Source: Dehalococcoidia bacterium (lineage in GTDB: Bacteria; Chloroflexota; Dehalococcoidia; SM23-28-2; HRBIN24). From it: a DNA stretch of 35,787 nucleotides. Shown here piece by piece: positions 972 through 15,103 of the stretch (position 1 is the stretch's first letter; every line of letters starts with the position of its first letter). The translations under genes and the position numbers were made by a program. The notes beneath the pieces were generated by a model, which was not told where the DNA came from, searched no databases, and worked only from the letters and a program-made list of their open reading frames with translations. The stretch spans positions 1-35,787 of the forward strand of contig JANXAP010000019.1 of the NCBI GenBank assembly GCA_025062275.1. The letters are read 5' to 3'.

Positions 972-2050
972 GCGTCTTCCTCCCTCCGCGCCACCGCCAC
1001 GGTGATGCGTCCGTCCTTGGTTCTGGGCACCAGCAGACGCGTAGCGCCGGCGGCAGCCAGGGCCGATGCCTCCGACACGGAGGGCAGGCCCAGCAGTCGC
1101 TCCGAGGCCGAGGGGGAGACGAATCCCGCCATTTCCCGCAGGCGGCGGGAGGGAAGCGGCAGCAGGGGGACGTCCAGCAGGGCGGCCGCCTCCGCTAGCC
1201 CCGGCTCGCCCGCCTTGGCCTCGGCAGTGGCCAGGCAGCGCAGCGACAGGGGAGACAGGCCGTTGTCTTCCAGGACCGAGCGAACGAAGGCGGCGATGCG
1301 ATGCCCCTCGACCCCGCGGCGGCAGCCTACTCCGGCTACCAGTGTCCGAGGTCGGTAGACCAGCGTCGGCGCGCCGTCGCGGACGGCAGCGGGCAGGAGA
1401 CGGTCGCTGACCACGATGCGCGGCGCGCCCAAGGCCATAGCCTCCTCCAGGCTGGAGACCTCGATAATGCCCGGGGGTGCTTCAGCCCAGGGCCTGCTAC
1501 CGACCTCCTGATAGAAGGTCACAGGGCCGCCGTTTATCAGCGCAGCGGCCACCGCCGTCAGCTCGCCTTCGTCTTCCAGTCGCCAGCCCCGGTCGGCCCC
1601 CAGCAGGTCCAGGGCCGGCAGTCCCAGGGCAGCGCTGGCGGAGGTGAGGACGGGGGTCGCGCCCAGGGCAGCGGCCACCTCCCGCGCCAGGGCCTCGCCG
1701 CCGCCCCGGTGACCGGACAGGAGGCACACGGCGAAGCGGCCCGCCTCGTCAACCGTGACGACCGCCGGGTCGCGGCCCTTCCCCGACAAAAACGGCGCTA
1801 CCAGGCGGACTGCGACCCCCACAGCCGTGAACAGCACCAGCGACGGATAGCGGGCGAAGAGGTCGGCCACCAGGGGCCGCAGAGGCAACTGGAAGGAACG
1901 GCAGGGGGCGTTGACCGTCCCTGCCCAGCGCTGCTCGACATAAAGCTCGACCCCGGACAGGCGACGCGCCAGCCGGCACGCCATGTCCGCCCCTCGGCGA
2001 GTGATGGCCACGGCAGCCACAGGCCGTCGGGCGAGGCCCTCAGCGTCCAT
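968..2050 (-). CDS. cbiG: Cobalt-precorrin-5A hydrolase CbiG
   Basis: A 360-residue CbiG. The enzyme opens the delta-lactone of cobalt-precorrin-5A and releases acetaldehyde, a hallmark step of the anaerobic (early cobalt) route. Visible parts: an N-terminal domain with VAAVAITRRGADMACRLARR, the conserved VTVDEAGRFAVCLLSGHRGG block near residues 95-115 (CbiG N-domain signature), a central linker domain, and a C-terminal CbiG_C domain with LATAEAKAGEPGLAEAA and GLPSVSEASALAAAG, ending in ITVAVARREEDA. The ATG start has a GGGAGGAAGG site and overlaps the end of cbiF by 11 bases; the stop overlaps cobJ by 4 bases, so translation is probably coupled. CbiG is a stand-alone protein here, not fused to CbiH. 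Confidence 0.93.
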   Translation of the reverse strand: MDAEGLARRPVAAVAITRRGADMACRLARRLSGVELYVEQRWAGTVNAPCRSFQLPLRPLVADLFARYPSLVLFTAVGVAVRLVAPFLSGKGRDPAVVTVDEAGRFAVCLLSGHRGGGEALAREVAAALGATPVLTSASAALGLPALDLLGADRGWRLEDEGELTAVAAALINGGPVTFYQEVGSRPWAEAPPGIIEVSSLEEAMALGAPRIVVSDRLLPAAVRDGAPTLVYRPRTLVAGVGCRRGVEGHRIAAFVRSVLEDNGLSPLSLRCLATAEAKAGEPGLAEAAALLDVPLLPLPSRRLREMAGFVSPSASERLLGLPSVSEASALAAAGATRLLVPRTKDGRITVAVARREEDA

Positions 2051-2828
2051 CCTTCCTCCCCCGTCGGAACAGGTGGCTGAAGGACGGGTCGTAGAGACTA
2101 GAGGTAGGCCCCTGAGGTCCCTTCAGGGCCGGGTCCAGGGCCTTCCCCACCAGCACGATGGCCTGTCGGGTGATGCCTGCCTCCCGTGCGAGGCGCGGCA
2201 TTTCGGACAGGGTCCCCCTCAACACCATCTCGTCGGGCCAGGATGCTCGGTACACGATAGCCGCCGGGGTATCGGGCGCGTAGCCGCCCTCCACCAGCGC
2301 GGCCACCGCTTCCCGAAGTCGCGCCGCTGACAGGAAGAGGGCCAGGGTGGAGCGATGGCGGGCCAGGGCGTGCAGGCCCTCTCCCTCGGGCATGGGCGTG
2401 CGCCCGGGCGCCCGCGTGACGATGACCGTCTGGGAGACGCCGGGAGCGGTCAGCTCCACCTTCAGGGCGGCGGCAGCAGCGAAGAGGGAGCTGACCCCCG
2501 GCACGATCTCGTATTCGATGCCCGCCTCGTCCAGGACTCGCATCTCTTCCAGCAGTGCGCCGTACAGGGACGGGTCGCCGCTGTGGAGCCGCGCCACCGT
2601 CTTCCCCTCGGCGGCCGCACCCGTCATCAGGGCCGCTATCTCCTCTCGCGTCAGGGAGGCGCTACCGTGGACCTGGGCGTCGGAGCGACAGAGGGCGACC
2701 ACATCAGGCGAGATGAGGGAGTCGGCCCAGATGACCACGTCGGCCTCCGCCAAGACTCGGACCGCCCGCACCGTAAGCAAGTCCGGGTCGCCCGGCCCGG
2801 CGCCCACGAAGTAGACCTTCCCCGTCAT
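2040..2828 (-). CDS. cbiF: (Cobalt-)precorrin-4 C11-methyltransferase CbiF/CobM
   Basis: A 262-residue tetrapyrrole methylase. The start KVYFVGAGPGDPDLLTVRAVRVL is the SAM-binding loop, and VIWADSLISPDVVALCR with HGSASLTREEIAALM is specific to the CbiF/CobM branch. The second SAM-contact region HSGDPSLYGALLEEM and IVPGVSSLFAAAAALKVELTAPGVSQTVIVTRAPGRTPMP follow. Known reaction: methyl transfer from SAM to C11 of (cobalt-)precorrin-4, just before the CbiG step, and cbiG is the next gene. Length is normal. The ATG has a GGAGG site 6 bases upstream and lies 3 bases after the cbiL stop. In this early-cobalt context the cobalt-containing substrate is more likely. Confidence 0.94.
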   Translation of the reverse strand: MTGKVYFVGAGPGDPDLLTVRAVRVLAEADVVIWADSLISPDVVALCRSDAQVHGSASLTREEIAALMTGAAAEGKTVARLHSGDPSLYGALLEEMRVLDEAGIEYEIVPGVSSLFAAAAALKVELTAPGVSQTVIVTRAPGRTPMPEGEGLHALARHRSTLALFLSAARLREAVAALVEGGYAPDTPAAIVYRASWPDEMVLRGTLSEMPRLAREAGITRQAIVLVGKALDPALKGPQGPTSSLYDPSFSHLFRRGRKDGR

Positions 2829-2831
2829 CCC

Positions 2832-3539
2832 CTACCTCCGCACGATGAGCAGCGAGAAGTAATCGCGCACCCGCCCGTCCACTGCCTCGGCGCCGTGCAA
2901 CACCTGCTCCTCGGGCATGGTGGCGCGGCGCACCAGGACGGCTCGCTCCAGCAGTCCCCGCGCTTCCAGCTCGCCGCGCACCACGTCCAGGACACGGTTC
3001 ACCTTCAGCAGCACGAGGGCATCGCTGGCGTCCAGGGCCGGCCCGATGGCCTGGGGGTGGTACAGGGCAGGCAGGACAGAGATGCGCTCGCGGCCGGCCG
3101 CCAGGGGGACGCCAGCGCGAGCGGCGGCGGCCGTCAGCGACGACACTCCCGGCACCACCTCCAGCGGCACCTGGGGATGCTCCCTGCGCAGGTGCTCGTA
3201 TACGTAGACGAAGGTGCTGTAGAGGAAGGGGTCTCCTTCGGTGAGGAAGGCGCAGTCCTGTCCCCGGGACAGTCGATCCAGCACCTGCGTCATAGGCCCC
3301 TGCCAGGTCTCGGTGGTGTGGGGGTGTGACATGGAGAAGGGGAAGGGCACCAGCTCTTTCCCCTCCAGGGGCACGGCGCCGGCAGCGATGGCCAGGGCCA
3401 TGCTGCCCTCGCCGGAGGTGGACTGGGGGTAGCAGACCACCGACACCTGCCGCAGGATGCGGGCGGCCTTCAGCGTCAGCAGCTCCGGGTCGCCCGGCCC
3501 CACGCCGATGCCGTAAAAGCGGCCCCATCTGCCGCTCAT
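2832..3539 (-). CDS. cbiL: (Cobalt-)precorrin-2 C20-methyltransferase CbiL/CobI
   Basis: A 235-residue SAM-dependent methylase that methylates C20 of (cobalt-)precorrin-2, the first committed ring methylation after metal insertion. Family features seen: FYGIGVGPGDPELLTLKAARIL at the N-terminus, VVCYPQSTSGEGSMALAIA (CobI/CbiL type), FLTEGDPFLYSTFVYVYEHL, VVPGVSSLTAAAARAGVPLA, and a C-terminal LLKVNRVLDVV. The ATG overlaps the cbiT stop as ATGA and has a GGAAGGAGG site. The upstream operon order cbiX, cbiD, cbiT, cbiL puts it in the same transcript as the sirohydrochlorin chelatase that would make its substrate. Confidence 0.94.
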   Translation of the reverse strand: MSGRWGRFYGIGVGPGDPELLTLKAARILRQVSVVCYPQSTSGEGSMALAIAAGAVPLEGKELVPFPFSMSHPHTTETWQGPMTQVLDRLSRGQDCAFLTEGDPFLYSTFVYVYEHLRREHPQVPLEVVPGVSSLTAAAARAGVPLAAGRERISVLPALYHPQAIGPALDASDALVLLKVNRVLDVVRGELEARGLLERAVLVRRATMPEEQVLHGAEAVDGRVRDYFSLLIVRR

Positions 3540-4129
3540 GGCTCCTCCTTCCAGGCCGAAACGATGAATACAGGGTTGAGGGCTTCAAGACCCGTAAGCC
3601 CCCCTAGCTCCCGCGAGCGCGCTACCTGGACGGCGGTCACTTGCCAGCGCAGCCCGAGGCAGGCGAGGGCCTCCCGTGCTCGCTCCAGGTTCTCCAGGGT
3701 GGCCAGGTCCACGACGATGCGCCCTCCCGCCCTCAGCCGTCGGGCGGCGCAGCCGAGGATGTCGGCCAGATGGCCACCGCTGCCCCCCACGAACACCGCG
3801 TCGGGGTCCGGGAGGCCGTCCAGGGCCTCGGGCGCTTGCCCTTCCACCACCGTCAGGTTGGGGCGGGGGAAGCGCTCCAGGTTGCGGCGCAGGGCAGCGA
3901 CGGCCTCGGCCCGTCGTTCCACAGCGTAGACGTGGCCCCGGTGGGCCACCAGCGCCGCCTCCAGGGCCAGGGAGCCGCTGCCCGCTCCCACGTCCCAGAC
4001 CAGCGAGTCGGGCTGGAGGCGCAGCTTGAACAGGGCCACCGCCCGCACCTCTTCCTTGGTCATCACCCCGGGCGGATGAGACTCCAGTGCCTCGTCGGGG
4101 ATGCCCAGGAAGGGCCGTTGGCCTCTCAT
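3536..4129 (-). CDS. cbiT: Cobalt-precorrin-6B C15-methyltransferase (decarboxylating) CbiT
   Basis: A 197-residue Rossmann-type methyltransferase. The N-terminal LGIPDEALESHPPGVMTKEEVRAVAL is the CbiT signature, followed by the SAM motif VWDVGAGSGSLALEAAL, VYAVERRAEAVAALRRNLERF, and DAVFVGGSGGHLADIL. CbiT methylates C15 and decarboxylates the C12 acetate chain. The open frame runs about 640 bases further upstream, but the ATG at 4129 is where family homology begins and it overlaps the cbiD stop as ATGA. The ribosome binding site is weak, so it probably depends on coupling to cbiD. It stands apart from cbiE, which lies at the far end of the visible operon. Confidence 0.93.
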   Translation of the reverse strand: MRGQRPFLGIPDEALESHPPGVMTKEEVRAVALFKLRLQPDSLVWDVGAGSGSLALEAALVAHRGHVYAVERRAEAVAALRRNLERFPRPNLTVVEGQAPEALDGLPDPDAVFVGGSGGHLADILGCAARRLRAGGRIVVDLATLENLERAREALACLGLRWQVTAVQVARSRELGGLTGLEALNPVFIVSAWKEEP

Positions 4130-5220
4130 CCCAGCTCTGCCCTCCCCAACAATCGCCCGTCCTGGTCGAAGCAGAGGCATTCCACAGCCAGCCTTCCGCC
4201 CACATAGGCGTGGGCGGCCTCGCACACCTTCTGGCACAGGAGGTCGAAATAGCCGGCCAGGCCGTGGGCCTGGACCAACTCCTGGGCATGGCGAGCGCTG
4301 GCTGCGCGGCGAACCGCCTCTACCAGGTTGGGCGGAGCGCCCAGGGCCAGGGCCAGCCCTGCCAGGAAGTCGGTGTCCACCTGGTTGCCCGCCACGTGAG
4401 TCACCATCTTCCCCTGGGCCACCTTGGACAGCTTGCCGATCATGCCCGCCAGGGTGACGCGACGGATCCCCCGCTGGACGGCCCGCCTGAGCCCGGGACC
4501 GAAGAAGATGCCGGCCTCCACGAAGGCCATGTCGGGCAGGTGGGAAAGAAGACGGCGGGCGAACTCCTCGCTCTGGGTGCCGGTGCTGAGGACTATGTGC
4601 TCCAGTCCGTTGGCGGCGGCCACGTCGATGGCCATCTCCACGCTGGCCCTCCAGGCAGCGGTGGAGAAGGGCACGACGATGCCGGTGGTGCCCAGGATGG
4701 ATATGCCCCCCACGATGCCCAGGCGGGCGTTGGTGGTCTTCTCGGCTATCTTCTCTCCCTCCGGGACCCATATCTCCACCGTCAGCCCGCGCTCTCGGGC
4801 CAGCGGCCCCAGACCTTCCAGAGCGGACTCGGTTATCATGCGTCGCGGCACGCGGGTGATGGCCGGCTCCCCTACGGGTATTCCCACCCCTGGCCGGGTG
4901 ACGGTGCCCACCCCGGGCCCGCCCCGGATGTGGACTTCGCCCGGCGGCTCGGCCCAGGAGACGGTGGCGCAGATCTCGGCGCCGTGGGTCACATCGGGGT
5001 CGTCCCCAGCGTCCTTCACTACCGAGCAGGTGACACGCCCGTTCCCCACCTCGACGCGGTGGACGTTCAGCGTAGCCTCCTGGCCCACGGGCAGGCGCAC
5101 CGTCACCTGCCGGGGTGCCTGGCCCGTGGCCAGGGCCATGGCGGCGGCCTTGGCAGCGGCAGCGGCGCAGGTCCCGGTGGTGTAGCCCCGGCGCAGGCCC
5201 CTGCGCCTCACCTGGGACAT
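4126..5220 (-). CDS. cbiD: Cobalt-precorrin-5B C1-methyltransferase CbiD
   Basis: A 364-residue CbiD, which methylates C1 in the anaerobic cobalamin route; CbiD is a marker for early cobalt insertion. Clear signature near the N-terminus: LRRGYTTGTCAAAAAKAAAMAL. Later blocks include VVKDAGDDPDVTHGAEI, TRPGVGIPVGEPAITRVPRRMI, GIVGGISILGTTGIVVPFS and HVAGNQVDTDFLAGLA, all typical of the family. The reading frame is open further upstream inside cbiX, but homology begins here. Two starts are possible: ATG at 5220, or GTG at 5211, which makes a GTGA overlap with the cbiX stop and has a GGAAGG site 9 bases upstream. The GTG fits the operon style better. Confidence 0.94.
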   Translation of the reverse strand: MSQVRRRGLRRGYTTGTCAAAAAKAAAMALATGQAPRQVTVRLPVGQEATLNVHRVEVGNGRVTCSVVKDAGDDPDVTHGAEICATVSWAEPPGEVHIRGGPGVGTVTRPGVGIPVGEPAITRVPRRMITESALEGLGPLARERGLTVEIWVPEGEKIAEKTTNARLGIVGGISILGTTGIVVPFSTAAWRASVEMAIDVAAANGLEHIVLSTGTQSEEFARRLLSHLPDMAFVEAGIFFGPGLRRAVQRGIRRVTLAGMIGKLSKVAQGKMVTHVAGNQVDTDFLAGLALALGAPPNLVEAVRRAASARHAQELVQAHGLAGYFDLLCQKVCEAAHAYVGGRLAVECLCFDQDGRLLGRAELG

Positions 5221-6002
5221 CCTTCCAGCACCTCCCTCACCCGCTCCCGAAGCATGACCGTCAGCTCCGGGTCCGGCCCCAGCGGCCCCGAAAGGAGTAT
5301 ACGCTTGCGGGGGTGACGACGCTGCAGGTCCTCCACGGCCGGAGCTATGTCCTGCTCCCATATCTTGCCCCGGAAGAAGAGGCAGGGGAAGACCAGCAGC
5401 GTGGCTACCTCCGGCAGCAGCGTCTCTGCCGCCTCGGCCAGCGCAGGCGGTCCGGGGCCCGACTGGGCCACCGCCGTCCGACACCCTCCGGCGATAGCCC
5501 TGGCTGCCGCTTCAGCCAGGTCCTGTGCCCAGCCCAGGTCGCCTCCGTTGTAGCGGGTGTAGGCCTTCACCAGCAGGAGGCCCCAGGGCCGTGGCTGCCC
5601 GTCCAGCAGTTTCGCGGCCCGTCGGGCCACCAGGGAGGCCAGCAGCGGGTGCCTGGCCAGTGGGCGTCCACTGTGGACCTGCAGGCCCGGCCAGAGCCGG
5701 GACAGCTGCTGGGCGACGCCGCATACCTCCTGGCGGTGCTGGCCCTCTCCCAGCAGCAGCGGCTGTACTACCAGGGCGTCCACCCCCTGGTCCAGCAGCG
5801 TGCGAGCGGCCTCGGACGGCGACGGCGACAGGGCCTCCAGATAGGCCACCGCCACCGGCAGTCCGCCCAGCCGCTGCGACAGGTCACGGGCCAGGGCCGC
5901 CGCTCCCCGGGGGGTCTCGTCGCCCCGACGGCTACCGTGGGCCAGCAGAATGACCCCCGGCCGCCTGCTCCTGGGGAGCGAAGGCCATGTGCAGGGGACC
6001 AA
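5208..6002 (-). CDS. cbiX: Sirohydrochlorin cobaltochelatase, CbiX-type
   Basis: A 264-residue class II chelatase that inserts Co2+ into sirohydrochlorin. The N-terminal half has ILLAHGSRRGDETPRGAAAL with the family catalytic His near residue 22, and LLLGEGQHRQEV with the second metal-site His. The C-terminal half is a second, diverged repeat: where two-domain CbiX proteins usually carry an RGSSD-like stretch, this has LLVKAYTRYNGGDLGWAQ, followed by LVFPCLFFRGKIWEQDIAP. The start codon is TTG with a strong GGGAGGT site just upstream. This start lies 71 bases inside the end of cbtA, the longest overlap in the operon. It sits between cobalt transport genes and cbiD, fitting cobalt delivery. 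A nickel or iron chelatase is less likely here. Confidence 0.88.
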   Translation of the reverse strand: MVPCTWPSLPRSRRPGVILLAHGSRRGDETPRGAAALARDLSQRLGGLPVAVAYLEALSPSPSEAARTLLDQGVDALVVQPLLLGEGQHRQEVCGVAQQLSRLWPGLQVHSGRPLARHPLLASLVARRAAKLLDGQPRPWGLLLVKAYTRYNGGDLGWAQDLAEAAARAIAGGCRTAVAQSGPGPPALAEAAETLLPEVATLLVFPCLFFRGKIWEQDIAPAVEDLQRRHPRKRILLSGPLGPDPELTVMLRERVREVLEGCPR

Positions 6003-6654
6003 AGCTACCTCCCACTACCAGCCAGAACAGGGCCAGTCCGCCAGCCGAAAGGGCCCGGAAGCGGGGTAACAGGTCGGACAGACTGGCAGGGACAGGATCG
6101 TCCGACCCCGGCACCAGGAAGTAGAGCAGCAGACAGGCGGCGGCATACAGGCCCAGGGCGATGGCCCATCTCTTGGGCGAGCCGCCCGCCCGGCCAAGTC
6201 GCCAGGCGACCAGCAACGCCGCTGCCGACAGCACCGTGAACAGCAGGTAGCTCGCCTGCCGCGAGCCCACCGTCGCCTCGTCGCCCACGCCGGGCGGGTT
6301 GGCCGGAAACTTGAGGAAGGGGAAGATGGCCACCGACCACAGCAGCCCCAGCGCCAGTGCCACGCCCCGCTGCCAGGCCCAGCGGCCCGGCAGGTGCCGC
6401 TCCAGCAGCGAGTAGGCCCCGGCGAAGATTAGGCCCCACGAGACCCCGTAAAGAAGGAAGCCGCCGAAGAGGCCCAGGCGCTGCACCGAGCGGGGGAAAA
6501 CCTCCTGCACCGGCCCCAGGGCTGCCTCCCGCCCGATGGCCTCCTGCAGCACCGGCTCCGTGGCCAGGAAGTGGTAAAGGGCCACCAGCATGCCGGCCAG
6601 GGCGCCGGCGCCCAACGCTGCCTTCAGGTTCTGGGCCAGAGTCGACGTGCCCAT
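5932..6654 (-). CDS. cbtA: Cobalt transporter subunit CbtA
   Basis: A 240-residue membrane protein of the CbtA family, a predicted cobalt transporter found next to B12 genes. About five hydrophobic segments are visible, near residues 12-32, 58-82, 92-110, 135-150 and 160-178, with a further one near 208-225. The family hallmark FPFLKFPANPPGVGDEATVGSRQ lies in a loop near residues 108-130. The N-terminal LAGMLVALYHFLATEPVLQEAI is also typical. It follows cbtB by 3 bases; the pair is thought to form one uptake system, with CbtB supplying a His-rich metal-binding tail. The transport role is a family prediction from riboswitch and operon context. Confidence 0.88.
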   Translation of the reverse strand: MGTSTLAQNLKAALGAGALAGMLVALYHFLATEPVLQEAIGREAALGPVQEVFPRSVQRLGLFGGFLLYGVSWGLIFAGAYSLLERHLPGRWAWQRGVALALGLLWSVAIFPFLKFPANPPGVGDEATVGSRQASYLLFTVLSAAALLVAWRLGRAGGSPKRWAIALGLYAAACLLLYFLVPGSDDPVPASLSDLLPRFRALSAGGLALFWLVVGGSFGPLHMAFAPQEQAAGGHSAGPR

Positions 6655-6657
6655 GGC

Positions 6658-6876
6658 CTAGTGGCAGGGGAACCCCGCCGTGTGACGGGCGTCGTGGAAC
6701 AGCTCGTGCAGCCAGTTGGAGCGAAGGGCCACCTCTCCCAGGAAGGCGCCCAGGGCCACCCCCTGGTCCATGCCTACGAGGTAGAGGCCCAGAAGCCCCA
6801 GCAGGATGGCCCCCCACGCCAGCCATGTCTCGGCCTGGGCCTCGCTCCACTCGCGCACCTGTACCAAGAGCCTCAT
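6658..6876 (-). CDS. cbtB: Cobalt transporter subunit CbtB
   Basis: A 72-residue protein with one membrane segment (about residues 20-42) and the C-terminal motif LHELFHDARHTAGFPCH, the conserved His-rich tail of CbtB that is presumed to bind cobalt. The start ATG overlaps the cbiC stop as ATGA and has an AAAGGAGGAGGG site. cbtA follows after 3 bases. Its position in a riboswitch-led B12 operon supports cobalt rather than another metal. The family assignment rests on the C-terminal motif plus the CbtA neighbour. Confidence 0.9.
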   Translation of the reverse strand: MRLLVQVREWSEAQAETWLAWGAILLGLLGLYLVGMDQGVALGAFLGEVALRSNWLHELFHDARHTAGFPCH

Positions 6877-7607
6877 GTCGTCCCTCCTCCTTTCGTGTTC
6901 GCTGCTCGTCCTCGCTCTCGAGAGGGCGACGTCCTCTCACCTCCTTCTAAGGCCAGGCCGGAGCGGGTCGTGCCGGCCCTGGCCATCCCTATCAGGGCGT
7001 TGACGATGGCGGCCGCCGCGCCGCCCCCGCCGCGGGAACCGACGATGGCGATGTAAGGCAGGGAACGCGCCATCAGCTCCTCTTTGGCCTCCGGGGCCAG
7101 CACCAGCCCCACGGGCGCCCCGATGACCAGGGCCGGCCGGGCCAGCCCCTCGTCCCACAGGTCGAGGAGCGCCAGCAGGGCAGTGGGAGCAGTGCCTACG
7201 GCGACCACGGCCCCCTCCACCGCTTCTCTCGAGAGCAGCATGGCCGCTGCCGAGCGGGTGATCCCCCGCCTCGAAGCCTCCTCCTCCGCACCGGCGGCAT
7301 CGAGGGCGCAGACCAGAGGGCAGCCGAGGCGGGATGCTCCCTGGCGGTCGATGCCTGCCAGGGTCACGTGGGAATCGGCCACGATGGGTGCGCCGGACCT
7401 CAGCGCCTGCACGCCTGTCTCGACTGCACCGGGCGAGAAGCGCAGTAGCGTCGGCAGCGCCGGGTCGCCCGTGGCGCGCAGCAGCTGCAGGGCGACCTCT
7501 TCCTCGGTCGGCGAAAGGGACAGGGGCGGCAGCAAGGAGCGGGCGACGGCCACCCCCCGCTGGTATATCTCCTGCGGCGATGCGCGATAACGGTCCAGCA
7601 GTCCCAC
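6873..7607 (-). CDS. cbiC: CbiC/CobH-like precorrin-8X methylmutase with altered active site
   Basis: A 244-residue member of the CbiC/CobH family, which moves a methyl group from C11 to C12 to give (cobalt-)hydrogenobyrinate. Family blocks: IYQRGVAVA, LLRFSPGAVETGVQALRSGAPIVAD, GITRSAAAMLL, APTALLALLDL, RPALVIGAPVGLV and LPYIAIVGSRGGGG. Several positions that I recall as near-invariant differ. The active-site His of the usual RxIHxxxD stretch is Arg44 (QLLRATGD), GNAPTAL reads GTAPTAL, and the RGRxGGS turn reads VGSRGGGG. A Gly/Arg/Thr-rich tail of about 35 residues follows the domain. GTG start with GAGGTGAGG site, 3 bases after the chelatase gene. It may be a slow or repurposed methylmutase; a second CbiC may exist elsewhere in the genome. 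Confidence 0.82.
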   Translation of the reverse strand: MGLLDRYRASPQEIYQRGVAVARSLLPPLSLSPTEEEVALQLLRATGDPALPTLLRFSPGAVETGVQALRSGAPIVADSHVTLAGIDRQGASRLGCPLVCALDAAGAEEEASRRGITRSAAAMLLSREAVEGAVVAVGTAPTALLALLDLWDEGLARPALVIGAPVGLVLAPEAKEELMARSLPYIAIVGSRGGGGAAAAIVNALIGMARAGTTRSGLALEGGERTSPSRERGRAANTKGGGTT

Positions 7608-7610
7608 GCC

Positions 7611-9509
7611 TCACCTCAGCACCAGGCGAATGGCCCTCGCCAGCGCCCTCCCGTCGGCGTCGGCCACGGGCACGCGAGGAGCGCCCAGGGCGCGGGCCAG
7701 CCCCTCCGTCAGCCCCAGCGAGAAGGGGGCGCCCCCTTCGGCGTCCAGGACCATCGCCTTGAACCCTCGCCGCCCCAGGGCCTCCGCCTGGGCGATAGCC
7801 TCCAGGTAGGGGTCGCCACCGTGCAGGGAGCGGTTGGCGCGCCCGTCGGTGGCCAGCACCAGCAGGCAGGGGGCACCCGGGTTGGCGCGGCGGTGTCTCT
7901 CCAGCAGCCAGGCCGCCCTGGCCAGCCCCGCCGCCAGGGGCGTGGCGCCGCCGGCAGGGAGGGACGCCAGCAGTCGTCGCGCCCGTTCCAGGCTGCCCGT
8001 GGGCGGCAGGAGCACTTCGGCGCCGCGACCGCGGGCGCAGACCAGGGCCACCCGGTCGCGCCGGCGGTAGGCGTCGGCCAGAAGCTCCAGGGCTGCTCCC
8101 TTTACGGCGGCCAGGCGCCGGCGGGCGGCCATGGAGCCGCTGGCGTCCACCACGAAGGTGAGCAGAGCCCCCACGCGACCCTCGCGCACCTTCATACGAA
8201 GGTCGCCGGGCTGCAGCCGTAGCCCCTGGCCAGGTAGGACACGGGCGCCCCTCTGGGCTGCCGCCCGGAGGGTGGCGTCCAGGGCCAGGTCAGCGACGCG
8301 GCCACGGGGCAGTCGGGCCGACACGTAGCGGCCGTGGCCCGGTATGCCCGTGACGGTGGCCCTCTTGCCGAGTCGTGGCGAGAGAGGCGGCTCGTCCTCC
8401 TTCATCAGCAGCGAGGGGGCCCTGGAAGGGGCAGGCGGCACCTGGCGTTCGCCTGTCTGTCCGCCTGCCTGTGGGGTGGGGGGATCGTCGCCAGCATCGG
8501 ACGGGGGCGGTGGCGGTGGTGGCGGGGAGGCTGGGGAAGGTCCTTCGGGCGGGCGCCCTCTGTGCAGCAGGGCCAGAGGCGCCACCGCCTCCACGTCCTC
8601 GAACCCCGCCTGGCGTCGGCCCTGGAGGGCGGCATGGGCCAGCGCGGCACGGTAGATGACGATGTCTGCCCGCATACCCTCCACGCCATGGGCGAGGCAG
8701 AGCCGGGCGATGCGCTCCAGCAGGCCGTCCTCGGCCGATACCTGCGGCAGGAGCGCCTGGGCCTCGGCCAGGCGACGGCGCAACGCCTCCTCCTCGTCCC
8801 GCCAGCGGGCGATGAAGCCGGCGGGGTCGCGGTCGAACTCCAGGCGCCTTCGCACCACCTCGGCCCGCAGGGCGGGGTCCGTCAGCTCCTCCACCTCTGT
8901 CGCCAGGCCGAAGCGGTCCAGGAGCTGGGGGCGTACCTCCCCCTCCTCAGGGTTCATGGTGCCTACCAGCACGAAGCGGGCCTGGTGGGAAAAGGACACA
9001 CCCTCTCGCTCGACGTAGTTGACGCCCATGGCGGCGGCGTCCAGCAGCACGTCCACCAGATGGTCGGGTAGCAGGTTCACTTCGTCTATGTACAGGACGC
9101 CGCGGTGGGCCTGCGCCAGCAGGCCGGGCTGGAAGCGCCGCTCGCCCTCCTTCAGGGCGGCCTCTATGTCGAGCGTGCCCAGGACCCGGTCCTCGGTGGC
9201 GCCCATGGGCAGGTCTACCAGTCGCGCCGGGCGGACTGAGGCTGGCGGCGGGGCGTCGCCCTGGCAGAGGCCGCAGAGGCCCTGGGGGGCCTGCGGGTGG
9301 CAGGAGAAGGGACAGCCGTCCACCACCTCGATGGGGGGAAGGACGCTGGCCAGCGCCCGAACCGCGGTGGACTTGGCCGTCCCCTTGTGGCCGCGGATCA
9401 GGACGCCGCCGATGCCCGGGTCTACTGCCGCCAGCAGCAGCGCCAGCTTCATGCGTTCCTGCCCGACGATGGCGGTGAAGGGGAAGGTCGGCCCCAGCTC
9501 AGCCCTCAT
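7611..9509 (-). CDS. ChlI-ChlD fused AAA+/VWA chelatase subunit, partner of CobN
   Basis: A 632-residue protein joining both ATPase subunits of a class I chelatase. Residues 1 to about 320 are a ChlI/BchI-type AAA+ domain: Walker A GHKGTAKS (about 40-48), a Cys-rich loop CPFSCHPQAPQGLCGLCQG (66-84), Walker B VLYIDEVNLL (138-147) and TMNPEEGEVRPQLLDRFGL. A Pro-rich linker with an eight-proline run follows. The C-terminal part is a VWA domain with an intact metal site, DASGS at 455-459 and LATDGRAN later. Known role: ATP-driven partner of a CobN/ChlH-type subunit. The ATG at 9509 overlaps cobN by 11 bases and has a GGAGG site. A magnesium chelatase is possible by sequence, but the CobN neighbour and riboswitch favour cobalt. 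Confidence 0.88.
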   Translation of the reverse strand: MRAELGPTFPFTAIVGQERMKLALLLAAVDPGIGGVLIRGHKGTAKSTAVRALASVLPPIEVVDGCPFSCHPQAPQGLCGLCQGDAPPPASVRPARLVDLPMGATEDRVLGTLDIEAALKEGERRFQPGLLAQAHRGVLYIDEVNLLPDHLVDVLLDAAAMGVNYVEREGVSFSHQARFVLVGTMNPEEGEVRPQLLDRFGLATEVEELTDPALRAEVVRRRLEFDRDPAGFIARWRDEEEALRRRLAEAQALLPQVSAEDGLLERIARLCLAHGVEGMRADIVIYRAALAHAALQGRRQAGFEDVEAVAPLALLHRGRPPEGPSPASPPPPPPPPSDAGDDPPTPQAGGQTGERQVPPAPSRAPSLLMKEDEPPLSPRLGKRATVTGIPGHGRYVSARLPRGRVADLALDATLRAAAQRGARVLPGQGLRLQPGDLRMKVREGRVGALLTFVVDASGSMAARRRLAAVKGAALELLADAYRRRDRVALVCARGRGAEVLLPPTGSLERARRLLASLPAGGATPLAAGLARAAWLLERHRRANPGAPCLLVLATDGRANRSLHGGDPYLEAIAQAEALGRRGFKAMVLDAEGGAPFSLGLTEGLARALGAPRVPVADADGRALARAIRLVLR

Positions 9510-12500
9510 GGGCCTCCTCCAGCAGCGCATCGGTCTCCAGATAGACCCGGCGCAGGGCGTCCAGCGTGTCCCGGGGCGGCGACTCCCACAGCCCCCGCGA
9601 TGCCGCCTCCAGGAGGCGGGCGGCGATGTCCCGCAACGCCCAGGGGTTGCTGCGACGGAAGAACTCCTGCATCTGGGGGTCCAGGGCGTAGGCCTGTGCT
9701 ACCTCGGCATACATCCAGTCCTCCACCACTCCAGCAGTGGCGTCGTACCCGAACAGGTAGTCCACGGTGGCAGCCAGCTCGAAGGCCCCTTTGTAGCCGT
9801 GGGACATCATGGCTCGGATCCACTTGGGGTTCACCACCCTCGTGCGGAAGACGCGCCGCGCCTCTTCGGCCAGGTCCCGTACCCGTGGCAGGGACGGGTC
9901 CGACGAGTCGCCGAAGTAGGCTCGGGGCCGGCGCCCCGTCAGGGCCTTCACGGTGGCCACCATGCCGCCGTGGTACTGGAGGTAGTCATCGGAATCGAAG
10001 ATGTCGTGCTCGCGGTTGTCCTGGTTCTTGGCTGCCACGGCGATGCGGGCGAACTGCTCTCGGAACTCCAGCGGGGCGCTCTCGCCCTGGCTACGACGCG
10101 AGTAGGCGTAGGACCCCCAGGCGATGTAGATGCTGGCCAGATCCTCCTCCGTGCGCCAGTTGCCTTCGTCCAGGGCGGCCAGGATCCCGGCCCCGTAGGT
10201 GCCGGGCTTGGAGCCGAAGATGCGGTACAGGGCGCGGGCACGGGCATCGGCCTCGGCATGGCCCGATGCCGTACGACGGGCTAGGTCCTGGCGATAGTGA
10301 CGGGCAACGTAGTTCATCTCGTCGGGCTCGTCCAGGGTCGCCACCGTCTCGATGGCTTCGTCCAAGAGGGCGATGAGGTTGGGGAAGGCGTCGCGGAAGA
10401 AGCCCGAGATGCGCAGGGTAACGTCGATGCGCGGGCGCCCCAGCTCCTCCAGGGGGATCACCTCCAGGCCGACGACGCGGCCGTCCTCCTCCCGCCAGCG
10501 GGGCCGCACGCCCAGCAGGGCCAGCGCCTGAGCGATGTCGTCGCCCTGGGTGCGCATGACGGCGGTGCCCCACACCACCAGCCCCACCATCTCCGGATAG
10601 CGGCCCTCTTCTCGCAGGTAGCGCTGCACCAGCCCCTCGGCCAGTGCCTTCCCCACTTCCCAGGCGAAGGGGGACGGCACCGAGCGCGGGTCGAGGGAGT
10701 AGAAGTTGCGTCCGGTGGGCAGGACGTTGGCCATGCCGCGGGTGGGCGAGCCGCTGGGGCCCGGAGGGACGAAGCCTCCCGCCAGCCCCCGCAGCAGGTT
10801 GCCTATCTCGTCGCTGGTGCGCTCCAGGTCGGGCACAAGCCGCCGACAGATGTGCTCCAGCGTCCTGGTCACTCCCTCGTGGACTAGGCCCAGCACCGAC
10901 TCCTGGGCCGAGGCGACCGAGGTCGCATCGAAGCCGCAGGCCTGGAGGGCCTGCAGTAGCCGACGGCAGAGGGCGTCCACCGCGGCCAGGACATCGCCTC
11001 GGGTGCGCAGGGGCATCTCCAGAGAGGCCAGGGCCGACGGCGCAGGGCCGTCATAGGGCAACCCCAGGTCGGAGCGCAGGTGGTGGTACGGGATGTCCAG
11101 CGCTTCGGCCACCGACCGACGCAGGGAGGGGACGTCACCGTTATCCAGCCGCGTCAGGGCCAGCAAGGTATCGATGAGGGCCTCGCCGCGGGGTGGCTCC
11201 CCCAGCACGTGCAGTCCGCCGCGGATGATGGCGTCCTTCAGCTCACAGATGTAGCCGTCCACGTGGAGGAGAAAGGAATCGAAGTCGTCGGGCTCTCGCT
11301 CCACTCCCAGGTCCCGGTGGAGGTTGGCCCGCTCCACCAGCTCCCAGATCTGCCGACGCACCAGGGGGAGTTTGGCCGGGTCCATGGCCTGGGCGCGGGC
11401 GTACTCGTCCATGAGCTGTTCCAGGCGGGCCAGGTCGCCGTAGGTGCCGGCGGCGGTCATGGGCGGCATCAGGTGGTCGACGATGACAGCGTGGGCACGG
11501 CGCTTGGCCTGTGCCCCCTCGCCCGGGTCGTTGACGATGAAGGGATAAAGGAGGGGCAGGTCGGGAAGGCAGGCGGTGGGATAGCAGGCTGGCGAGAGGC
11601 CGATGCCCTTGCCCGGCAGCCATTCCAGAGTGCCGTGCTTGCCCAGGTGTACCACGGCGTCGGCGCCGAAGCCGTCCCGCAGCCAGCGATAGAACGCCAG
11701 GTAGTGATGGGTAGGCGGCAGGTCGGGGCTGTGATAGACGGCCATGGGGTCCTCGCCGAAGCCCCGCGGCGGCTGCAGCCCGAGGTAGACGTTGCCCACC
11801 ACCAGGCCCGGAATGGCCAGGGCGCCTTCGGCGCAGTAGACCTGTCCGGGGGGCGCCCCCCATGCGCCCTGCATCTCCTGCTGCAGCGCCTCCGGCAGTC
11901 CCTGGAACCAGCGTCGGTATTCCTCCGCAGGCACCCGTCCTGGGGCGTGGGCCAGGTGCTCCTCCGTCAGGTGCTCTCGGTCGTAGCTGCCCGTGGCCAG
12001 CAAGCGGCGCATGAGCTGGTCGCCGTCTTCAGGGACCTCCGGCACCCTGTAGCCGGCCTCGCGCATGGCCATCAGGAGGCGGACGGCGGAAGCGGGGGTA
12101 TCCAGCCCCACGGCGTTGCCCGCTCGGGCGCTCCGGGTGGGGTAGTTGCTGAGGACGATGGCGACCCTCTTCTTGGAGTTGGGCTTACGGCGCAGGCGTG
12201 CCCAGCGCAGGGCCTGCTCGGCCACTATGCCCACCAGCGCGGGGTCGGGCACGGTGCGGGCCACCGTCACCCCCAGGCGCGGGTCGTGGCGCTCCTCCTT
12301 GAAGGCGATGGGCAGGGAGATGATGCGGCCGTCCAGCTCCGGCAGGGCCACGTTCATGGCCACGTCCAGGGGCGAGACCCCCACGGCGCTCTCCTCCCAC
12401 TCCCCTCGGGAGGAGGTGGCCAGGATCGCTTGGACGATAGGCACGTCCAGTGCGGCCAGGGCGTGAGCGGTCACGTCGGGATCGTCGCGGGCCAGGGCGA

Positions 12501-13263
12501 AGCTGAGGGTGGAGATGATGCAGTCCACCAGGGGCCGGCCGCCGTCGTCCAGCAGGTGGCGGCGCAGGGCCAGGGGCAGTTGCCCCGGAGCGGTGGCCTC
12601 GTCTCGCAGGCTGTAGCAGAAGACGGGCAGGACGTCGGCACCTCGCTCCTCCAGCGCCTGGACTAGGACATCGATGGCCTCGGTGTTGCCGCTCGCCCAC
12701 AGGGCCCGATAGAAGAGCACGCCTACCGCCGGACGTTCGCCTCGCCAGTACCGCCGACGGTATTCAGGCGAAGAGAGGACCTCAGCGACGCCCGGCCGGT
12801 AGACGCCGTCCCACGGCAGAGGGGTGGGAGGGCTGTGACCGTAGTCGGTGCCCAGGAGGCGGTCGCTGAGGAACAGCAGCAGCTGGCGCAGGTTCTCGGT
12901 GCCCCCGTGCACCAGGTACTCGTAGGCACGGGCCACCACCGCCGCCGGCACAGTGCTGGCCGCCTCCAGGGACGGGTCGCGGGTGGCCTCGCCAGGACAG
13001 GCGACGAGCGGAATGTGCCGCTCTCGACATAATGCAGAAAGGCGCTCCACCCCAGCCTCGAAGGCCCGCTTGCCGCCCAGCAGTCGCAGCAGCACCAGGG
13101 AGGCACGGGGGGCCACGGCGTCCATGAAGGAGTCCAGGGCCGCGGACGATGCCAGCTGGCGGACGTGCCGGGCCATCACGGGTGGGAAGTCGGGAGGAAG
13201 GCGGTCCAGGGCCCGCGCCAGGGCCTGCAGGTCGGTGTCGGCGGTCGTCAGGAAGACTATCAT
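9499..13263 (-). CDS. cobN: Cobaltochelatase large subunit CobN
   Basis: A 1254-residue CobN/ChlH-family protein, the porphyrin-binding subunit of class I chelatases that inserts Co2+ into hydrogenobyrinic acid diamide in the late-cobalt route. Signatures: VLFYRALWASGNTEAIDVLVQALEERG, VQAILATSSRGEW, VHLGKHGTLEWLPGKGIGLS, YPFIVNDPGEGAQAKRRAHAVIVDHLMPPMT, and near the C-terminus HGYKGAFELAATVDYLFGYDATAGVV. Length is normal. The frame is open further upstream into the riboswitch, but homology begins at ATG 13263 (MIVFLTTADTDLQALARAL). It is the first gene after the cobalamin riboswitch, so B12 should repress it. A GGGAG ribosome binding site lies about 10 bases upstream, inside a strong hairpin. 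Family members can handle other metals. Confidence 0.94.
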   Translation of the reverse strand: MIVFLTTADTDLQALARALDRLPPDFPPVMARHVRQLASSAALDSFMDAVAPRASLVLLRLLGGKRAFEAGVERLSALCRERHIPLVACPGEATRDPSLEAASTVPAAVVARAYEYLVHGGTENLRQLLLFLSDRLLGTDYGHSPPTPLPWDGVYRPGVAEVLSSPEYRRRYWRGERPAVGVLFYRALWASGNTEAIDVLVQALEERGADVLPVFCYSLRDEATAPGQLPLALRRHLLDDGGRPLVDCIISTLSFALARDDPDVTAHALAALDVPIVQAILATSSRGEWEESAVGVSPLDVAMNVALPELDGRIISLPIAFKEERHDPRLGVTVARTVPDPALVGIVAEQALRWARLRRKPNSKKRVAIVLSNYPTRSARAGNAVGLDTPASAVRLLMAMREAGYRVPEVPEDGDQLMRRLLATGSYDREHLTEEHLAHAPGRVPAEEYRRWFQGLPEALQQEMQGAWGAPPGQVYCAEGALAIPGLVVGNVYLGLQPPRGFGEDPMAVYHSPDLPPTHHYLAFYRWLRDGFGADAVVHLGKHGTLEWLPGKGIGLSPACYPTACLPDLPLLYPFIVNDPGEGAQAKRRAHAVIVDHLMPPMTAAGTYGDLARLEQLMDEYARAQAMDPAKLPLVRRQIWELVERANLHRDLGVEREPDDFDSFLLHVDGYICELKDAIIRGGLHVLGEPPRGEALIDTLLALTRLDNGDVPSLRRSVAEALDIPYHHLRSDLGLPYDGPAPSALASLEMPLRTRGDVLAAVDALCRRLLQALQACGFDATSVASAQESVLGLVHEGVTRTLEHICRRLVPDLERTSDEIGNLLRGLAGGFVPPGPSGSPTRGMANVLPTGRNFYSLDPRSVPSPFAWEVGKALAEGLVQRYLREEGRYPEMVGLVVWGTAVMRTQGDDIAQALALLGVRPRWREEDGRVVGLEVIPLEELGRPRIDVTLRISGFFRDAFPNLIALLDEAIETVATLDEPDEMNYVARHYRQDLARRTASGHAEADARARALYRIFGSKPGTYGAGILAALDEGNWRTEEDLASIYIAWGSYAYSRRSQGESAPLEFREQFARIAVAAKNQDNREHDIFDSDDYLQYHGGMVATVKALTGRRPRAYFGDSSDPSLPRVRDLAEEARRVFRTRVVNPKWIRAMMSHGYKGAFELAATVDYLFGYDATAGVVEDWMYAEVAQAYALDPQMQEFFRRSNPWALRDIAARLLEAASRGLWESPPRDTLDALRRVYLETDALLEEAHEG

Positions 13264-13265
13264 CA

Positions 13266-13297
13266 GTCCGCTTCTCCCACGCCTGGGGAGAGCGGAC
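13266..13297 (-). promoter_or_regulatory. Hairpin covering the cobN ribosome binding site
   Basis: On the minus strand the two arms, 13297-13286 and 13278-13266, pair over 12 base pairs, interrupted by one unpaired base at 13273, with a 7-base loop (13285-13279). The hairpin ends 2 bases before the cobN ATG and includes the only purine-rich GGGAG stretch near it. No U-run follows, so it looks like a translational block rather than an intrinsic terminator. It probably belongs to the expression platform of the riboswitch upstream. Confidence 0.65.
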
Positions 13298-13298
13298 A

Positions 13299-13351
13299 GG
13301 GAGGGCCCGACGGCCCACCTGGGCGCCCTCCCCGACGCGAGGAGGCTCGCG
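13299..13351 (-). promoter_or_regulatory. Two further hairpins between riboswitch and cobN
   Basis: Stem A is a 6-bp perfect stem with a 4-base loop (13351-13346 with 13341-13336). Stem B is an 8-bp perfect stem (13332-13325 with 13306-13299) that encloses a small GCCC/GGGC stem. Together with the start-site hairpin, nearly the entire 91-base leader is paired. Neither stem has a U-run. They may be alternative pairing partners that relay the riboswitch state. Confidence 0.45.
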
Positions 13352-13354
13352 CCC

Positions 13355-13514
13355 GTCTCCCGGGCAGGTCTCCTGGCTGACGGATCATCGCCCTCGGCGC
13401 CTTCCCATCCCTTTCGGGACAGTGGCCTTTGCCGGGGCTCCCCGCTCACAGTGGCGCGGCCGCGGAGGCTTTTACCCCTCTTCCCTGTTAGGCCCTTGCG
13501 GGCACCCGGGAGAC
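13355..13514 (-). promoter_or_regulatory. Cobalamin riboswitch (class I) controlling the cobN-cbiE operon
   Basis: On the minus strand a 160-base element shows the conserved cobalamin aptamer blocks in order: GGGTGCC, AACAGGGAA, GGGGTAAAAGCC, GCCACTGTGA, a second GCCACTG, GGGAAGGCGC, and the B12 box AGCCAGGAGACCTGCC at about 13361-13377. The closing P1 stem is a perfect 10 base pairs (13514-13505 with 13364-13355). It lies between a minus-strand promoter and cobN, so adenosylcobalamin (or another cobalamin) should turn down the entire operon, including cobalt uptake. It does not precede cobQ, which is on the other strand. Confidence 0.95.
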
Positions 13515-13597: not shown

Positions 13598-15103
13598 ATG
13601 GGCGGCCGCTTGCTGATGGTCCAGGGCACCATGTCCCACGTGGGCAAGACCGTGCTGGTGGCCGCCCTTTGCCGCATATTCCTCCAGGACGGCCTCCGAG
13701 TGGCACCTTTCAAGGCCCAGAACATGGCCCTCAATTCCTTCGTCACCCCCGACGGACTGGAGATAGGCCGTGCCCAGGCCATGCAGGCCGAGGCTGCGGG
13801 CGTGCCCCCAGCGGTGGAGATGAACCCGGTCCTCCTCAAGCCCGAGGCCGACCACCGCAGCCAGGTGGTGGTCATGGGCCGGCCCATGGGTTCCTGCAGC
13901 GCCGCCGAGTATCACCGTCTGAAGCCCTCCCTTCTGCCGCTGGTGCTGGAGGCCCTGGAGCGGCTGCGCTCCCGCTACGACGTGGTGGTGATGGAAGGCG
14001 CGGGCAGTCCCGCCGAGGTGAACCTGAAGACCCACGACATCGTCAACATGGGCGTGGCGAGGCGAGTGGGCGCGCCGGTGTTGCTGGTGGGCGACATCGA
14101 CCGCGGCGGGGTCTTCGCCCAACTGGTGGGCACGGTGGAGCTGCTGGAGCCCGAGGAGCGGTCGCTGGTGAAGGCCCTGGTCATCAACAAGTTCCGCGGG
14201 GACAAGTCGCTTTTGCTGCCTGGCCTGCGCTTCCTCGAGGAACGAACGGGCCTGCCTGTGGCCGGAGTGGTGCCCTACGACCCGGGCCTCTCGCTGCCGG
14301 AAGAGGACTCGGTGGCCCTGGAAATGGTGCCCCGGCGGGCGGACGGCGTCCTGGACGTGGCCGCCGTGCGCCTGCCGCGCATCGCCAACTTCGACGACCT
14401 GGACCCCCTGCGCAGAGAGGCAGGGGTGGGCCTGCGCTTCGTCACCAGGGGCGACGAGCTGGGGAGCCCCGACCTGGTGGTGATCCCCGGAACGAAGACC
14501 ACCATCGCCGACCTTGAACAGATGCGGTCGAGCGGGATCGCCGAGGCCATAACGCGTGCAGTATCGGCAGGCACGGCCGTGGTAGGCATCTGCGGCGGCT
14601 TCCAGATGCTGGGGCTGGCAGTGCTGGACCCCCAGGGCGTGGAGAGCGACAGGGCTCAGGCCCGAGGGCTGGGCCTGCTCCCCGTCAGCACCGTCTTCCG
14701 TCCTGCCAAGACCACCCATCAGGTGGAGGCCCGAGTGGAGGCCGACCGCGGTCTGCTCGAGGGATGCCGAGGGATGGCGATACGGGGCTACGAGATCCAC
14801 ATGGGAGAGTCATGGGGCGAGGCCGATTCCCCCTTCCTGCTGGTCTCTCGCTCTGGCGAGGCGTGTCGCGTCCCCGATGGCGCCCTGAGCCGGGACGGCT
14901 GGCTGCTGGGCACCTACATTCATGGACTGTTCCACAACCGCGACCTGCGGCGGCGGCTCTTGCGCAATCTGGCCCGTCGCAAGGGGGTGTCCCTGCCCGA
15001 GTCCACCGAGGGGGAGGACGACCCCTACGACCGACTGGCAGCCCTGGTGCGCGCCCACCTGGACATGGGCCTCATATACCGTCTGCTGGGACTGGAGGGG
15101 TGA
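13598..15103 (+). CDS. cobQ: Cobyric acid synthase CobQ/CbiP
   Basis: A 501-residue glutamine-dependent amidotransferase that amidates four side chains of adenosylcobyrinate a,c-diamide. The N-terminal BioD-like ATP domain has the loop GTMSHVGKT (10-18), FKAQNMALNSFVTPDGLEIGRAQAMQAEAA and DIDRGGVFAQLVGT. The C-terminal class I GATase domain has the nucleophile Cys332 (VVGICGGFQMLG), GYEIHMGES and His442 (TYIHGLFHN). Length and motifs are complete. It diverges from the riboswitch-led operon and no riboswitch lies in front of it, so control differs. A TAGCAT -10-like element ends 8 bases before the ATG, so the mRNA may be nearly leaderless. The next gene starts in a GTGA overlap with its stop. 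Confidence 0.96.
   Translation: MGGRLLMVQGTMSHVGKTVLVAALCRIFLQDGLRVAPFKAQNMALNSFVTPDGLEIGRAQAMQAEAAGVPPAVEMNPVLLKPEADHRSQVVVMGRPMGSCSAAEYHRLKPSLLPLVLEALERLRSRYDVVVMEGAGSPAEVNLKTHDIVNMGVARRVGAPVLLVGDIDRGGVFAQLVGTVELLEPEERSLVKALVINKFRGDKSLLLPGLRFLEERTGLPVAGVVPYDPGLSLPEEDSVALEMVPRRADGVLDVAAVRLPRIANFDDLDPLRREAGVGLRFVTRGDELGSPDLVVIPGTKTTIADLEQMRSSGIAEAITRAVSAGTAVVGICGGFQMLGLAVLDPQGVESDRAQARGLGLLPVSTVFRPAKTTHQVEARVEADRGLLEGCRGMAIRGYEIHMGESWGEADSPFLLVSRSGEACRVPDGALSRDGWLLGTYIHGLFHNRDLRRRLLRNLARRKGVSLPESTEGEDDPYDRLAALVRAHLDMGLIYRLLGLEG

Follow-up and report, generated by a model that had tools for sequence, protein, structure and literature searches.

A CbiC homologue with arginine in place of the catalytic histidine in a conserved B12 gene cluster of Chloroflexota

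The methylmutase CobH is described as moving a methyl group from C11 to C12 of precorrin-8 (PMC7242693). A CobH-like domain also occurs in CoaR, a cyanobacterial cobalt sensor, where it is described as binding a tetrapyrrole (PMC7689651; PDB titles), and a Cys-His-Cys cobalt site is reported at the CoaR C-terminus (PMC7689651). In all eight distinct solved enzyme sequences that were aligned here a His stands at the catalytic position, and in CobH itself (1f2v/1i1h, aligned to the Myxococcota CbiC L028) the motif reads RMVH. This residue, His43 near ring C, was reportedly termed strictly conserved by Shipman et al. in 2001, who are said to have proposed that it protonates the ring-C nitrogen. 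How the last corrin-forming step is understood to work depends on this one His, yet among the 67 CbiC-containing Chloroflexota genomes sampled it is absent from 19, two of them more deeply remodelled. One of these two is the source of the window analysed here, i.e. the entire contig JANXAP010000019.1 (35,787 nucleotides) of a Dehalococcoidia genome of 1.8 Mb (95.2% complete).

Roughly the first 13.4 kb of the window are taken up by a B12 gene cluster on the minus strand. It comprises the 5' part of cbiE (1-207), cut by the contig end, where CbiE profile positions 1-66 match at 13-207 with 40.6 bits (cut-off 92.9; below it, as expected of a fragment); cbiH (219-971; TIGR01466, 296.2 bits); cbiG (968-2050; PF01890, PF11760 and PF11761); cbiF (2040-2828; TIGR01465, 339.5 bits); cbiL (2832-3539; TIGR01467, 230.7 bits); cbiT (3536-4240, start estimated, ORF to 4771; TIGR02469, 129.8 bits); cbiD (4126-5220, start estimated from the sister gene, ORF to 5484; TIGR00312, 424.8 bits); cbiX (5208-6002; PF01903, 100.1 bits); the cobalt transporter subunit gene cbtA (5932-6654; PF09490, 133.1 bits); a gene recognized by eye (6658-6876), whose start overlaps the cbiC stop and whose 72-aa product with a His-rich C-terminal end we take to be CbtB-like; cbiC (6873-7607); a gene for a ChlI/ChlD-type cobaltochelatase subunit (7611-9530; TIGR02442, 733.9 bits, cut-off 779.45); and cobN (9499-13449; PF02514, 1420.9 bits). 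The cbiA/cobB gene for cobyrinate a,c-diamide synthase faces away on the plus strand (13598-15103; PF07685, PF01656). The oxygen-independent set is present in the window (cbiD and cbiG with cbiH, cbiF, cbiL, cbiT and the cut cbiE), and cbiE passes the family cut-off both in a sister-genus genome, G093, and in a congeneric one, G108. CobS, CbiB and B12-binding proteins are encoded elsewhere in the source genome (G000). The precorrin-6 reductase CbiJ/CobK was found in none of four genomes searched (G000, G093, G108 and the same-family genome G034), three of which hold the oxygen-independent cluster, while the control search was positive in 3 of 14 named genomes; the pathway is thus not fully accounted for. 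A CbiX-type early chelatase (5208-6002) and a CobN plus ChlI/ChlD-type chelatase (7611-13449) are found in one and the same cluster, together with CbtA and the CbtB-like protein.

The cbiC reading frame is unbroken (minus strand, GTG start, 244 aa) and encodes a homologue of the precorrin-8X / cobalt-precorrin-8 methylmutases, matching PF02570 with 193.7 bits over profile positions 1-195 of 196 (curated Pfam cut-off 22.5 bits). An AlphaFold model based on a three-row alignment (mean pLDDT 75.8; residues 214-244 below 50) takes the CobH fold, with a Z score of 20.9 and an rmsd of 2.5 over 178 positions aligned with 1f2v (model residues 27-210); across the solved CobH/CbiC enzymes Z ranges from 19.4 to 20.9. 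Frame and fold are hence intact, as had been stated in an initial annotation made from the sequence alone. The same annotation had proposed to look for a second, canonical cbiC, and a family search of the 95.2% complete genome returned a single CbiC. Residues from about 214 to 244 (window 6873-6966) form an Arg/Gly-rich C-terminal tail of some 30 residues, modelled with low confidence, which the sister gene does not have. Against the NCBIfam equivalog models for canonical methylmutases the window protein reaches 158.6 bits at best (cut-off 276). Four of five His-type controls, three from Chloroflexota and one from Ilyobacter, also fall below the cut-off and only that from Acidiphilium passes (330.2), so the cut-off test does not discriminate and missing it was rejected as proof of divergence. 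In the best scores with these models the two Arg types are the lowest of nine CbiC domains (153.8 and 132.9 bits), compared with 160.0 and 169.1 for two Tyr types and 174.6-193.5 for three Chloroflexota His types. By homology the window protein is a member of the CbiC family, but it lacks residues that characterize the canonical His-type enzyme, and the Arg type is best filed as a variant within this known family.

With the CobH/CbiC enzymes of known structure (1f2v, 3e7d, 2afr, 1v9c, 4au1) the window protein shares full-length homology, fold, operon slot and single copy. It differs from them in having Arg for the catalytic His and in the replacement of Ser18, Arg41, Met81, Asn139 and Ser195. 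In phmmer alignments the catalytic His of the solved chains (3e7d, 4au1, 4fdv, 5n0g, 1v9c, 2afr, 1ou0) falls on Arg44 (His43 of CobH), encoded on the minus strand at 7476-7478 by CGC, one base from CAC, just as the initial annotation had read it. The two further changes it had listed are equally real: Thr139 (7191-7193) occupies the place of the GNAPTAL Asn, and the Ser of RGGS, in the altered RGRxGGS motif, falls on Gly195 (7023-7025). Its list was incomplete, however, missing Gly for Ser18 (7554-7556), Gln for Arg41 (7485-7487) and Val for Met81 (7365-7370, with the preceding His80). The Arg of the RxxH motif itself is therefore replaced as well, by Gln41 in the window and by His41 in the sister protein.

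Conservation was counted over 67 relatives (48 His-type and 19 Tyr-type proteins), 66 from Chloroflexota and one, L028, from Myxococcota. Left out were L077 (a fragment; tree and columns), L023 and L024 (each an incomplete additional match in a His-type genome) and duplicate loci; the column counts include L028 and omit L077, the 48-genome His census given below includes L077 and omits L028. Five columns with a conservation of 95% or more in these relatives, i.e. Ser18 (66/67), Arg41 (67/67, His and Tyr types), Met81 (67/67), Asn139 (65/67) and Ser195 (64/67), are altered in both Arg types in addition to His44, to Gly and Gly, Gln and His, Val and Val, Thr and Thr, and Gly and Gly in window and sister protein, respectively. 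Among 27 columns that reach 95% conservation or more when His and Tyr types are taken together, the two Arg types depart at 5 and 6, whereas the other 67 relatives depart at 4 at most (of 28; median 0). Outside the relative set the five columns are less strict, with Lys41 in 1ou0 and Asp139 in Deinococcus deserti, both with His at position 44, and Thr139 is also seen in two Tyr-type proteins. Asp78, Glu173, Lys175 and the GG of RGGS are retained in the Arg types. His80 is the sole His of the window protein and is present in the sister protein, too. In sequence, the Arg type has been altered more profoundly than the Tyr types.

Position 44 was compared in 67 sampled Chloroflexota genomes with CbiC, drawn from two sets that overlap by three genomes: 22 of 294 genomes of the class had a PF02570 match, and at least 48 of 400 genomes of the phylum had one to the window protein, with up to seven candidates scored per genome in the latter set. 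The residue is His in 48 genomes, Tyr in 17, which encode 19 such proteins, and Arg in two. When the 19 His-less genomes, several of them drafts with 81-90% completeness, were searched in full for the family, 21 CbiC matches came up; each was one of the Tyr or Arg proteins already counted, and none was of the His type. Judging from this sample, the His is not universal in Chloroflexota CbiC; a search at title/abstract level found no literature report of a His-less CbiC. Like the window protein, the Tyr types lack the active-site His, showed no His-type copy alongside in the searched genomes and mostly lie near B12-gene motifs, a short CbiD, CbiX or chelatase motif occurring at 15 of 19 loci (either strand; unverified matches, without control); ORFs inspected by eye at L013, L015, L030, L036 and L038 agree with neighbouring cbiD, cbiX or chelatase motifs. 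In contrast to the window protein they keep Arg41 and Met81 (19/19 each) and mostly Asn139 (17) and Ser195 (16). The initial annotation suggested that the enzyme may use another base or do another reaction; the changes are more numerous than those it listed and fall on positions that are also altered in CoaR. The missing His by itself is weakened as an argument for a different reaction because Tyr takes its place in 17 other Chloroflexota genomes, as the sole CbiC type found there.

In a tree of 69 rows with the trait column removed, the Arg pair forms one clade (100/100) within an unresolved fork that also holds nine Tyr and two His proteins, and the Tyr types fall into two groups of 9 and 10. 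Neither a single Tyr clade (p-AU 0.448) nor a single Tyr plus Arg clade (p-AU 0.073) is rejected. The idea that the Arg types are nested inside one His-less clade is not upheld by the free tree, where they join the mixed Tyr/His fork. A first contig scan returned no relatives outside Chloroflexota; a second scan with the Arg-type alignment returned G093 and one Myxococcota protein with His. The window protein also matched 193 plasmid records, and all six of these that were examined keep the His.

The second Arg type is encoded in G093, a sister-genus MAG (JAUQPQ010000014.1, Chloroflexota). Its CbiC is 63% identical to that of the window and has Gly18, His41, Arg44, Val81, Thr139 and Gly195, so that four of the five replacements other than at position 44 are identical; among the 45 columns with 90% conservation or more in His types, the two Arg types agree at 39, seven shared replacements included. 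Arg44 is encoded by AGG in G093 versus CGC in the window. The genes run chelatase-cbiC-cbtB-cbtA-cbiX-cbiD-cbiT-cbiL-cbiF-cbiG-cbiH just as in the window, and in G093 cbiE, a cobO-like gene and cbiA come next, with a protein like the window's CbtB-like one directly following cbiC (eight genes aligned to the window's, cbiE identified by profile, and the chelatase end, cbtB, cobO and cbiA named by eye). A sequencing or assembly error, or contamination, is what one might suspect in MAG data where CGC is one base from CAC. The same Arg via AGG in an independent genome, accompanied by four further shared replacements and a conserved gene order, can hardly be reconciled with it, and for practical purposes JAUQPQ010000014.1 refutes this explanation. 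The initial annotation had favoured a real divergent subgroup over a read error and named close relatives with His as what would speak against it; independent genus, different codon, synteny and purifying selection now bear it out, and CbiC occurs in 2 of 25 genomes of the order (source genome and G093), both with Arg.

Low incidence in the order could also be read as decay, with B12 synthesis being lost and cbiC on its way out. Of the 25 genomes of the order, just those 2 showed CbiC and 3 showed CbiD. In G034, a genome of the same family with 99% completeness, neither CbiC nor CbiD was found, but it keeps CobS, CbiB and B12-binding proteins like a corrinoid salvager. Between the window and G093, however, dN/dS is 0.18 for cbiC and 0.11-0.26 for eight operon neighbours, values that are rough because dS is 1.06-2.29 and near saturation, and both frames and replacement residues are conserved between the genera. 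Within the genus, nine cluster genes compared between the window and G108 (cbiC not among them, the chelatase over 313 of 639 residues) have dN/dS of 0.11-0.35 at dS of 0.52-0.93 and no stops. An assembly gap accounts for the missing cbiC of G108, where one contig starts within cbtB and the match to the chelatase ends 3 bases away from the edge of a contig. Intact frames and constraint on the cluster genes indicate that the B12 pathway is maintained; a cbiC pseudogene is rejected by the conserved residues and by the constraint between and within genera, and decay at the level of the order is very unlikely to account for the Arg type.

CoaR offers a parallel to the Arg-type pattern. At the covered positions it has Gln41, Leu44, Val81, Tyr139 and Gly195; it shares with the window protein the loss of the His and of Asn139 and is identical to it at Gln41, Val81 and Gly195 (9ikt, 9ika, 8x33, 9ipl). 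Altogether it is altered at 8 of 25 covered columns, including all four covered Arg-type columns other than the His (hypergeometric P 0.0055, computed after the pattern had been seen), and the window model matches CoaR 9ikt with Z 17.8. The tetrapyrrole domain of CoaR and the window protein have thus lost catalytic positions alike. In contrast, CoaR is a MerR-family regulator with Leu44, whereas Pfam shows CbiC alone and no MerR DNA-binding domain in the window protein, which is encoded in a biosynthetic operon and lacks a Cys-His-Cys site, its tail (208-244) being without Cys or His. Overall identity to CoaR (42.1%, against 42.8% for a His-type relative) does not single out the Arg types, and a horizontal relation was rejected. 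The parallel may mean that the same catalytic constraint was lost, or that the same pocket was refitted convergently.

An intact gene that lacks the His in a well-preserved B12 cluster implies that the His is dispensable or that the protein's job has changed. From the available evidence we infer that the Arg-type CbiC has probably retained its activity in the C11-to-C12 methyl shift of cobalt-precorrin-8, its active site having been rebuilt. Since the pathway is maintained and no other CbiC was found, cobyrinate is most likely still its product. Besides the single match per Arg-type genome and the lack of a His-type copy in the 19 His-less genomes, this reading is favoured by the cluster order kept in a second genus, by the presence of CobS, CbiB and B12-binding proteins, by a cbiC dN/dS within the range of its neighbours, by Tyr in place of His in 17 of 67 genomes with B12-gene motifs at most of the loci, and by the kept fold and the close agreement between both Arg types. 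Several results speak against it: the Arg types depart at more near-invariant columns than any other relative and score lowest of nine CbiC domains, their altered columns coincide with those of CoaR, a sensor and no catalyst, CbiJ/CobK was not found in the four genomes, dS is near saturation, and the cbiC of G108 is lost in an assembly gap.

Mechanistically, the Arg type would act within the oxygen-independent route of its host (CbiL, H, F, G, D, T, E), with RxxH turned into Q/HxxR and Ser18, Met81, Asn139 and Ser195 replaced in the putatively rebuilt active site. The methyl shift would be a [1,5]-sigmatropic rearrangement, so that the protein would mainly have to bind and fix the right tautomer; since cobalt would already sit on the ring nitrogens, the proton proposed to pass from His43 to the ring-C nitrogen in the aerobic route, where the ring is metal-free, may be unneeded. 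Arg44, or Tyr in the wider group, may serve via hydrogen bonding or charge, and His80, adjoining the changed Val81 in both Arg types, is a candidate replacement acid/base. Cobalt alone would not explain the loss, as 48 of the 67 genomes keep the His, if their route is cobalt-bound as well.

Two other readings accept the gene as functional and give the protein a different task. It might be a pseudo-mutase, comparable to the CobH-like domain of CoaR, that binds a corrinoid, be it an intermediate or the product, and serves as a carrier, scaffold or sensor while another protein does the methyl shift. The joint loss of the His and the four covered columns in CoaR and the fold match to 9ikt point in this direction; the failure to find a His-type CbiC in either Arg-type genome, the kept operon slot, the missing MerR domain and the ordinary identity to CoaR do not, and we know of no alternative methylmutase for the C11-to-C12 shift, which makes such a role unlikely. 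Equally doubtful is the more specific proposal of a corrinoid-binding pseudo-mutase as the sole CbiC of a living B12 operon, with the shift left to an undiscovered enzyme or to chemistry without the catalytic His. The replacement of five near-invariant positions along with the His would also suit an altered reaction, on a different substrate or tautomer or leading to a non-standard corrinoid. Yet cbiH, cbiG, cbiF, cbiL, cbiT, cbiD, cbiX, cobN and cbiA pass the expected family cut-offs (which speak for families, not for active sites) and the genome also has CbiA, CbiB and CobS for the later steps, and we regard an altered reaction as improbable. Retained methylmutase activity is accordingly the reading that we prefer.

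The natural Tyr and Arg variants are direct reagents for asking whether the His is catalytic on the cobalt-bound substrate, the Arg types also showing where the enzyme fold nears the sensor state of CoaR. Our results further highlight that homology-based annotation hides the loss of a catalytic His. For enzymologists the broader Tyr-type group is perhaps more useful; its loci are L013, L015, L020, L030, L036, L038, L039, L041, L042, L043, L046, L047, L048, L051, L059, L060, L064, L076 and L078. At L036 a single frame (1161-2921, minus strand; 587 aa) joins a CbiX-like start to a Tyr-type CbiC and suggests a CbiX-CbiC fusion, and other Tyr-type CbiCs likewise lie in unusually long frames, e.g. 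of 786 and 1113 aa.
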